This document shows, in pieces, positions 37,876 to 39,041 of a stretch of 64,000 nucleotides of DNA. Under the pieces are notes generated by a model, which ran no database searches, was not told where the DNA came from, and saw nothing but the letters and a program-made list of their open reading frames with translations. Both the position numbers and the translations under genes were made by a program. Every line of letters begins with the position of its first letter. Position 1 is the stretch's first letter. The stretch is from positions 186,001 through 250,000 of the forward strand of contig JAFQCT010000016.1 in assembly GCA_017399405.1 (NCBI GenBank), written 5' to 3'. Origin of the DNA: Clostridia bacterium. GTDB taxonomy: Bacteria > Bacillota > Clostridia > Oscillospirales > Acutalibacteraceae.

Positions 37876-37951
37876 CGGGGTGTGGCGCAGCTGGGAGCGC
37901 GCTTGACTGGGGGTCAAGAGGCCGCAGGTTCAAGTCCTGTCACTCCGACCA
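37876..37951 (+). tRNA. tRNA-Pro (anticodon GGG)
   Basis: A 76-base cloverleaf with encoded CCA. The acceptor stem CGGGGTG pairs with CACTCCG (one G-U), the anticodon stem is CTTGA/TCAAG around the loop CTGGGGG (anticodon GGG), and the T arm is GCAGG/CCTGT with loop TTCAAGT. It is followed directly by a terminator and by a duplicated copy of its own 3' end. Confidence 0.93.
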
Positions 37952-38018
37952 AAAATGGAAAACACTCATCGTAGGATGGGTGTTTTTCGTTTTTTAGTAT
38001 GTATTATGGTCTTGAACC
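37927..38018 (+). repeat. tRNA-tail repeat unit 1 (tail, terminator, inverted T arm)
   Basis: The unit starts in the T arm of tRNA-Pro (GGTTCAAGTCC at 37927-37937) and continues through the CCA and AAAAAT. A hairpin terminator follows (37959-37986), and the unit ends in an inverted T-arm copy, GGTCTTGAACC at 38008-38018, which matches the complement of the tRNA at 10 of 11 bases. Confidence 0.7.
37959..37997 (+). terminator. Terminator of tRNA-Pro
   Basis: AAAACAC and CAT pair with ATG and GTGTTTT (arms 37959-37969 and 37976-37986), followed by a run of T. Confidence 0.8.
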
Positions 38019-38026
38019 CTTGGGTT

Positions 38027-38112
38027 TTGGCGTTAAGAAAACAATCTGGTTGATTGTTTTTAGCCAAAGACGATTGGCGGGTACCAAATTTCATTAGAAA
38101 TTGGGTCGCCAA
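38027..38112. repeat. Two adjacent hairpins, both closed by TTGGC/GCCAA
   Basis: Hairpin A (38027-38067) has TTGGC/GCCAA at its base and AAAACAATC/GATTGTTTT above. Hairpin B (38074-38112) has TTGGCG/CGCCAA at its base and CCAAATTTC/GAAATTGGG, with one mismatch, above an ATTA loop. They fill the space between the two tRNA-tail units. Just after them, 38113-38146 is unusually G+C-rich for this genome. Confidence 0.6.
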
Positions 38113-38144
38113 GCGAAAAGTATGCGAGCGAGACGCGAGCAGAC

Positions 38145-38232
38145 GGTCAAGTCCTGTCACTCCGACCAAAAATCCAAATTCGACCTTTAGGTTGAGTTTG
38201 GATTTTTCTTTTTGTGATTATAGGACTTGACC
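38145..38232 (+). repeat. tRNA-tail repeat unit 2 (tail, terminator, inverted T arm)
   Basis: 38147-38173 repeats 37930-37956 exactly for 27 bases, that is, the last 22 bases of tRNA-Pro plus AAAAT. There is no tRNA body in front of it. A terminator hairpin follows (AAAAATCCAAA/TTTGGATTTTT, 38168-38207), then AGGACTTGACC at 38222-38232, which is the exact complement of the start of this unit. Confidence 0.75.
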
Positions 38233-38240
38233 CGTATTGT

Positions 38241-39041
38241 TTATCCTAACATAACATCTAATAGCATCATAGTAGCAAAGCCTGAAACTATACCCATTGT
38301 TGCGAAATATGGTTGTATTCTCTGATTTTTTTGACATTCGGGTATTAGTTCGTGTACTGCAACTAAAATCATTGCACCTGCAGCAAATGAAAGAGCATAG
38401 GGTAGAATGGTTTCAACATATACTGTCAATAATGCACCAATTACACCAGCAATCGGCTCAACCATACCTGACGCCTGACCGAATAAAAAACTCTTTTTTC
38501 TTGAATAACCCTCGCGTCTTAAGGGTACTGAAACTGCCGCACCCTCAGGGAAATTCTGTAAGCCTATACCAACTGCAACTGATATTGCACCCATAAGATT
38601 TTCAGTAGAAAAATTGTTTTGAAGAGCACCAAAAGCAACACCAACTGCCAACCCTTCAGGTATATTATGAAGTGTTATTGAAAGAATTAGCATTATTATT
38701 CGTTGTAGTTTTTCGTTAGGTTGTGATTTTGGGTTATTGGCTTTATTTCTTGCAAATGTAACTATTTTGTCTGAAGCCCACATAAATGTTGCACCGAATA
38801 AAAATCCGATTGTAACAACAAAATATGCAGGTGTGTTCAATATGGATTCTGCACGCTCAATGGCGGGTTGCAATAAAGACCAGAAACTTGCCGCAATCAT
38901 AACACCTGACGCAAAACCAAGCATAATATTTAATAATTTTTTATTAGTGGATTTGAATAAAACTACCGTGGCTGCACCTAATGCGGTTACAAACCAGGTG
39001 CCAAGCGTTGCTATTAGTGCCATAATAACAAAAGTATTCAT
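38241..39041 (-). CDS. ZIP-family divalent metal transporter
   Basis: A 266-residue membrane protein with about eight helices. The ZIP metal-binding motifs are HNIPEG (125-130, helix 4) and LQNFPEGAA (161-169, helix 5). A charged Lys/Asn/Gln loop at about 98-112 separates helices 3 and 4. The family imports Zn2+ or other divalent metals. Translation may be controlled: its GGAGGTG ribosome site is buried in a strong leader hairpin. The second tRNA-tail terminator also lies at its 3' end and could end its transcript. Confidence 0.92.
   Translation of the reverse strand: MNTFVIMALIATLGTWFVTALGAATVVLFKSTNKKLLNIMLGFASGVMIAASFWSLLQPAIERAESILNTPAYFVVTIGFLFGATFMWASDKIVTFARNKANNPKSQPNEKLQRIIMLILSITLHNIPEGLAVGVAFGALQNNFSTENLMGAISVAVGIGLQNFPEGAAVSVPLRREGYSRKKSFLFGQASGMVEPIAGVIGALLTVYVETILPYALSFAAGAMILVAVHELIPECQKNQRIQPYFATMGIVSGFATMMLLDVMLG

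Follow-up and report, generated by a model that had tools for sequence, protein, structure and literature searches.

A non-coding cassette of about 110–150 bases lies behind stable-RNA genes in Clostridia and is probably passed now and then from one tRNA gene to another, a reading of the clostridial tRNA-linked repeat to which we give a probability of roughly 0.7. The cassette is bounded on the left by an inverted T-arm and on the right by the second half of a direct T-arm. The whole element has the order tRNA, terminator 1, cassette, tail copy, and terminator 2, and it occurs singly or in tandem. The copy from which the analysis starts lies in the window, that is, the whole 64-kb stretch of DNA that was analysed, which belongs to a genome (G000) of 1.96 Mb in 21 contigs.

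In the window, the host gene is an intact tRNA-Pro (GGG) with an encoded CCA at 37876–37951 (ARAGORN; Rfam RF00005, 61.2 bits), and the parts of the element follow it on the same (+) strand. The end of the gene from the T-loop to the CCA, together with AAAAT, forms tail copy 1 (37930–37956), the left half of a 27-base direct repeat, and leads into a terminator-like hairpin 1 with a T-run (37951–37994; inverted repeat I1, 20 nt, 85%). The cassette starts 56 nt past the CCA with the inverted T-arm at 38008–38018, which is 91% complementary to 37927–37937 and is placed as the left end by a 26-copy alignment; its first eight bases (38008–38015) are the 5' strand of a closing stem, P1. Four hairpins, assigned from the alignment and from pair counts, fill the cassette. 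H1 (38016–38025), for which the fold of other copies was also used, has T-arm sequence and reads ACCC-TT-GGGT in the window copy, with a loop that elsewhere in the family is often GNGA. H2 (38026–38068), with the conserved internal loop GTTAAG / TA, is the most strongly conserved portion of the family, and it is followed by H3 (38071–38115; internal loop GGTA / T) and H4 (38120–38144). The right junction, GG followed by TCAAGTCC (38145–38154), is the 3' strand of P1 and the right end of the cassette, a boundary drawn from the alignment and equal to that of a tRNA-Trp copy in another genome (G034). Tail copy 2 (38147–38173), the right half of the 27-base repeat, has no tRNA body upstream. It runs into terminator 2 with its T-run (38168–38212; inverted repeat I2), which the strict terminator scan of the locus reports, while hairpin 1 is not reported. 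A trailing inverted T-arm at 38222–38232, 100% complementary to 38145–38155, is probably the leftover of another unit; a trailing arm of this kind (at least 10/11) stands after 10 of 68 single elements. A 67-codon ORF on the complementary strand (37966–38169, −) is almost surely spurious. Open reading frames across the H2 hairpin at two further loci (L250 and L255) encode LKTCHRHVFLT.

An earlier note on this DNA had described the exact repeat, a hairpin with a T-run and then an inverted T-arm behind each tail, and hairpins closed by TTGGC/GCCAA in the middle region, and all of these are present. The 27-base repeat has no third copy on either strand of the 64-kb window, and 300 mononucleotide shuffles of 37876–38260 give no direct repeat longer than 13 bases. 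In the folding check that the note had proposed, the region beats all of its shuffles (z −8.2 for 37876–38240 and z −6.9 for 38000–38240). One detail has to be read differently. The note had taken the loss of one T on both sides of unit 2 for co-variation of paired arms; GGTC is, like TGTC and AGTC, a usual right junction of the family before the second tail, so there is no loss on that side.

The middle part of the locus (38008–38154) recurs in the same genome behind tRNA genes for Leu, Thr, Gln, and Arg. A sequence search found copies behind tRNA-Leu(GAG), tRNA-Thr(GGT), tRNA-Leu(UAG), and tRNA-Gln(CUG) and two more without a tRNA body, and a check of the tRNA genes added a copy behind tRNA-Arg(ACG) and a diverged one behind tRNA-Tyr. 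When 60 genomes were searched with the window copy, its best match apart from itself was the tRNA-Leu(GAG) copy, 86% identical over 152 bases; 25 of the 60 (own genome included) contain a match, 24 of these 25 being of the same genus. A covariance model, R1, built from 26 copies matched 36 of 40 genomes of the genus with 1 to 14 matches each (E up to 0.01; four genomes are without). In overlapping genome samples that were filtered more strictly than the genus search, it matched 88 of 394 genomes and 48 of 168 genera of the order (E up to 0.001), 74 of 391 genomes and 49 of 223 genera of the class (E up to 1e-4), and 3 of 398 genomes of the phylum (E up to 1e-4), two of the three being the window's own genome and one of its family. 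The search downstream of tRNA genes that the note had suggested thus finds the middle part behind further tRNAs in this and related genomes, as a tRNA-associated repeat element, the note's own first reading, would have it; the note's counter-reading, a middle unique to this locus and left by a decaying tRNA array, does not describe a sequence common to many tRNA loci. Rfam 15 gives no gathering-score match in the window besides tRNA, and with E up to 10 the best non-tRNA match to the locus has an E of 0.34, far under the gathering score. For 15 loci that carry either the element or the H2 motif, Rfam returned only tRNA, Gut-1, and ssnA matches, off the motif positions. In a distant search of phage records with the locus, the 20 listed of 480 matches all cover the tRNA part alone, and no description of such repeats in Clostridia was found in a literature search that reached few subscription papers.

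The association with stable-RNA genes was followed with R1 on 148 loci, which are the best matches of earlier searches or were picked by hand and so are no random sample; they yielded 184 matches, 168 of them distinct, from 73 genomes. A tRNA lies within 1000 bases upstream of 128 of the 168 hits. For 102 of the 168 the start is at most 110 nt from the tRNA end (median 53, range 24–70), and the host tRNAs of these near hits have 29 anticodons. A tmRNA gene stands directly upstream in three hits (L131 in G007, L162 in G064, and L228 in G718). The 40 hits with no tRNA called within 1000 bases upstream comprise these three, contig ends, masked stretches, partial tRNAs, later array units, and some places with nothing tRNA-like. 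The cassette is under 160 bases in most copies. Among the 95 testable hits, those whose gene encodes the CCA, the last 13 bases of the host tRNA reappear after the element without a mismatch in 67 and with a single one in nine (76 together); in 82 no other tail fits better than the own one. The inverted T-arm fits its own tRNA above the average other tRNA in 93 of the 95; it is strictly best in only 14, since T-arms resemble each other. Sixteen of 93 first units have no tail copy of at least 11/13; these and the 40 hits without a called tRNA count against the preferred reading. The tRNA genes at two loci of G034 (L184, L185) lack an encoded CCA and so do their tail copies, so that the copy tracks the gene and not the mature tRNA. 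Tail copy and arms thus fit the local tRNA in most testable copies, in keeping with the note's tRNA-associated element. The note's phrase that the element restores the tRNA end is inexact, since the tail of the tRNA stays in place and a further copy of it is added.

The predicted RNA fold is a five-way junction in which P1, formed by the inverted T-arm and the first bases of the second tail, encloses H1–H4. The 26 copies were aligned by sequence (MAFFT) and checked against the fold of a single copy: 91.9% of the cells are paired, and at 37 of the 54 pairs some copy has both bases changed. The covariation score of the 26 copies is 0.384, as against 0.153 for shuffles and 0.057–0.073 for slid partners. 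H4 is weakest with 73% of its cells paired, yet all eight of its pairs change on both sides somewhere. Folded singly, two of three copies give the five-way junction as the minimum and one gives another fold. These data show that the predicted fold is conserved through compensating changes. Covariation is strong across the copies of the family, though not, as the earlier note had proposed by way of the lost T, within the single window locus. The alignment holds 41 G.U pairs and 13 A.C mismatches, an excess that would lend mild support to an RNA read from the + strand, although the count itself leans that way because the structure was derived from a + strand fold. A hairpin of inverted T-arm, GNGA, and T-arm without the insert was also considered as an ancestral target and set aside: with up to two mismatches the pattern has no match in 394 genomes of the order, and as it fixes the loop type, other forms could escape it.

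Tandem arrays are found in two genomes (G062 and G203), where two to three near-identical full units stand 174–212 bases apart behind tRNA-Arg(ACG), tRNA-Ser(UGA), tRNA-Ala(CGC), tRNA-Arg(CCG), and a Ser-like tRNA that ARAGORN does not call. The comparison with empty sites in relatives that the note had proposed for the tRNA-Pro locus gave a result for another tRNA only. In the conserved cluster Gly-Arg-His-Gln(UUG), the element is present in G028 and absent from G017, and in the window's genome a lone inverted T-arm stands behind tRNA-Gln(UUG). For tRNA-Pro(GGG), the gene in G021 is free of the element and lies about 1.1 kb from the homologue of the gene that follows in the window, turned round, and is not a clean orthologous site.

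Of 77 loci, 24 have two terminators that are at least 90% alike, and the number rises to 31 at a limit of 80%, whereas 2000 random pairs of terminators from different loci have a mean of 60%, a 95th percentile of 72%, and a maximum of 85%. In the other 46 loci the likeness is below 80% and falls mostly inside the range of the random pairs, so that a duplication explains these only if it is old. The likeness fits, without proving it, a duplication of tail and terminator at insertion that later decays. The nearest neighbour of a terminator is from the same tRNA in 22 of 61 cases and from the same genome in 2 of 55; terminators track the tRNA type and not the genome, and are thus local ones.

Passage between tRNA loci is best seen in G034, in which one composite cassette occurs in three loci, once directly behind tRNA-Pro(CGG), once directly behind the 3' half of a tRNA-Trp, and once behind tRNA-Val(GAC), where it forms the second unit. 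The tRNA-Trp half is our reading of the sequence. Upstream, the Pro and Trp loci are unrelated; they are identical from the inverted T-arm onward. At its right end the Trp copy reads TCAAGTCC and continues with TTCTGCCCC, which is nine bases of the Trp tail. Behind the Pro and Val copies there are further repeats, and no second host tail was found within 2.2–2.3 kb; only one of the three loci thus shows the host-tail end. All three tRNAs share the T-arm core GGTTCAAGTCC, which is also common to the window's tRNA-Pro and the tRNA-Leu(GAG) of its genome. The case could reflect gene conversion between existing copies and not a new insertion. Even so, the comparison supports a passage of the cassette between tRNA genes, which would appear to be rare, and to this extent it bears out the mobility that the earlier note had considered. 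The composite cassette (L244–L246) contains another palindromic repeat (CCCTCCGTCAGCCTGACGGCTGCCACCTCCCTTTGCACAAGGGAGG). Apparent tRNA-Trp 3' halves, starting from the anticodon loop, precede copies in three genomes (L059 in G019, L187/L245 in G034, and L226 in G708) and look as though the tRNA had been cut off from its repeat by another integrative element.

A series of steps that would produce these loci can be outlined. The T-arm-like ends of the cassette may let it meet tRNA genes with the same T-arm, and its right end would join the T-arm, tail, and terminator of the host. The joined piece could then enter beside the tRNA through T-arm and tail homology and would yield the order tRNA, tail, terminator, cassette, tail, terminator, with the tRNA unharmed. 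Read-through of terminator 1 would make the RNA that lies between the two terminators.

A different account takes the repeat for a stable functional RNA that does not move: it would have arisen behind tRNA genes, be inherited with each tRNA, be kept because it serves the maturation, termination, or regulation of tRNAs, and be made uniform with its tRNA by gene conversion. Clustering speaks for this account. In a set of 65 elements, one per genome and tRNA, the nearest neighbour of an insert is from the same tRNA in 18 of 61 cases (permutation mean 3.2, maximum 10) and from the same genome in 7 of 55 (permutation mean 2.5, maximum 9); H2 identity is in excess by 0.066 among copies of the same tRNA, a value reached in none of 500 permutations, and by 0.007 within a genome, reached in 186 of 500. 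As copies of one tRNA from different genomes are more alike than copies within a genome, most copies are passed down with their tRNA and a move to another tRNA is occasional, and the clustering speaks against frequent movement within genomes. The conserved fold also suits a functional RNA, as does the place between two terminators, which is shared with the E. coli rrn TLRs, transcribed repeats that bind Hfq and CsrA in vitro (PMC8144298). The patchy occurrence suits it poorly: the 36 matched genomes of the genus range from 1 to 14 matches and four have none, the tRNA-Gln site is empty in the conserved cluster of G017, and one cassette sits in three tRNA loci of G034. We regard this account as unlikely.

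Also to be weighed is a MITE, moved by the transposase of another element that recognises T-arm-like terminal inverted repeats. Like MITEs and REP-type repeats, the element is short, gene-less, dispersed, and rich in hairpins, with terminal inverted repeats of about 8–12 bases, and its H2 hairpin also occurs in other dispersed repeats. A scan with the H2 pattern found at least 123 copies in at least 116 stretches. Among the 123 copies listed, 36 have a tRNA or tmRNA at most 120 bases upstream, 44 have the inverted T-arm motif, and 68 have neither, a figure that overcounts tRNA-free copies, as at least five of them (L254, L259, L261, L271, and L326) show a T-arm-like start or tail. Many of the tRNA-free copies among the matches listed lie within other palindromic repeats of Clostridia, and H2 may be a module common to several kinds of structured repeats. 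The MITE account is nevertheless rather improbable. The ends of the element are not fixed but follow the T-arm of the local host tRNA, its fold is a conserved five-way junction, and in place of a short target duplication its alike flanks repeat the tail and terminator (at least 80% in 31 of 77 loci). No autonomous partner was suggested by the ORFs between two inverted copies in one viral contig or around the two copies of L255, and so the dependence on a transposase that the earlier note had considered found no counterpart in the few ORFs viewed. The ORF between the inverted copies appears, from its translation, to be a portal-like phage gene.

Further H2 copies were recorded away from tRNA genes. 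The hairpin, CGTTAAGAAAAC..GTTTTTAGC, is also present, with no tRNA nearby, in palindromic repeats of other kinds that are dispersed in Clostridia (L250–L367; e.g., L295, L255, and L273), and five viral contigs carry the pattern, with no tRNA called by ARAGORN in the stretches examined. Single copies among the matches listed come from Bacteroidota by title (L256, L257, L278, L327, and L329) and from Alphaproteobacteria (L270 and L287; Sphingomonas, Rhodobacterales). In these seven stretches ARAGORN calls a tRNA only in L257, a tRNA-Leu about 100 bases downstream of the pattern, and the matches may in part be due to chance. A stretch titled uncultured Alphaproteobacteria bacterium (L292, 37–351) contains a pair of units in tandem at a spacing of about 201 bases, together with a terminator and a stretch resembling an inverted T-arm; R1 scores the units at 35 and 26 bits, no tRNA is called in the stretch, and it is possibly a tRNA-linked repeat outside Clostridia.

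A bolder form of movement would be a self-guided RNA, in which the inverted T-arm acts as an internal guide and pairs with the T-arm of a tRNA gene or precursor, the five-way-junction RNA has its 3' end joined to the T-arm, tail, and terminator of the tRNA, and the chimera is copied back next to the tRNA. We hold this to be a doubtful proposition, to be entertained with considerable reserve; if it were true, the TLRs of E. coli and Clostridia would be two branches of an ancient parasitic or ribozyme-like class of RNA that spares the host tRNA. Very improbable, finally, is the attachment-site scar that the earlier note had listed, in which the tail copy is the attR of a lost phage or island: tRNA-targeting integrases leave a tail copy behind the tRNA and the crossover would fall in the T-loop, but scars would hold unrelated or lost DNA between attL and attR, share no middle, and form no near-identical arrays, whereas here one structured cassette of 110–150 bases, with inverted T-arm and covariation, fills the space between the tails at many tRNAs.

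The copies across Clostridia show that a structured RNA can be linked to tRNAs of 29 anticodons and to tmRNA. In these genomes, such repeats are likely to give rise to spare tRNA tails and to spurious short ORFs.

Among known systems, integrative elements that target tRNA genes, with their att site in the T-arm, likewise leave a second copy of the tRNA 3' end, but the clostridial cassette has no integrase, is mostly shorter than 160 bases, and has an inverted T-arm at its left. Group I introns carry an internal guide sequence. The inverted T-arm of the element is the reverse complement of the T-arm halves joined across the H2–H4 insert and resembles such a guide by analogy; Rfam scans of the window locus and of 15 loci gave no intron family that would indicate a group I core.

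The TLRs of E. coli (RF00391, RtT; tyrT-tyrV, arg, and rrA/rrB/rrF) occupy the same place as the clostridial element, directly behind a stable-RNA gene. First described in 1978 and of unknown function, they number 22 copies at ten loci, and 18–19 bases at their 3' end are identical to the 3' end of the upstream tRNA or rRNA (PMC8144298); RtT is also mentioned in PMC4986893. In the window, 22 tRNA bases (27 with AAAAT) are repeated in the same manner, and G062 and G203, with two to three units in an array, fall within the one to five copies per locus that characterise TLRs. Three rrn TLRs lie behind 5S between the terminators T1 and T2, as the clostridial cassette lies between two terminators (PMC8144298). 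In E. coli tyrT-tyrV, an inverted T-arm matches at 14 of 17 positions in the three units scanned, as against 12 of 17 for the nearly palindromic direct T-arm of the locus itself, and the fourth unit has the same stretch; in all four units a closing stem formed with the tail copy is predicted to enclose several hairpins. The argQ locus has the tail copy but no clear inverted T-arm (best 9/17), and the argX-proM and leuQPV operons of E. coli have no TLR-like tail copy. RF00391 matches the tyrT locus (L179) four times and has no match in the window, and R1 has none in that locus; as the sequence models do not cross-match, the clostridial element is filed apart from RtT, as a clostridial TLR variant. 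The two have a layout in common, and a common descent goes beyond the present evidence. TLRs are described for E. coli and those of rrn operons for Enterobacteriales (PMC8144298), while the clostridial element is found in Clostridia and also behind tmRNA. Passage of the cassette between tRNAs, which is supported for the clostridial element, does not figure in the part of the TLR account available to us (PMC8144298). The ten loci of one E. coli strain have left little to compare. Clostridia offer a large and independent set in which the fold is conserved, the ends are defined, and, in one genome, three tRNA loci hold the same cassette, and with this set the origin and spread of TLRs become directly testable.
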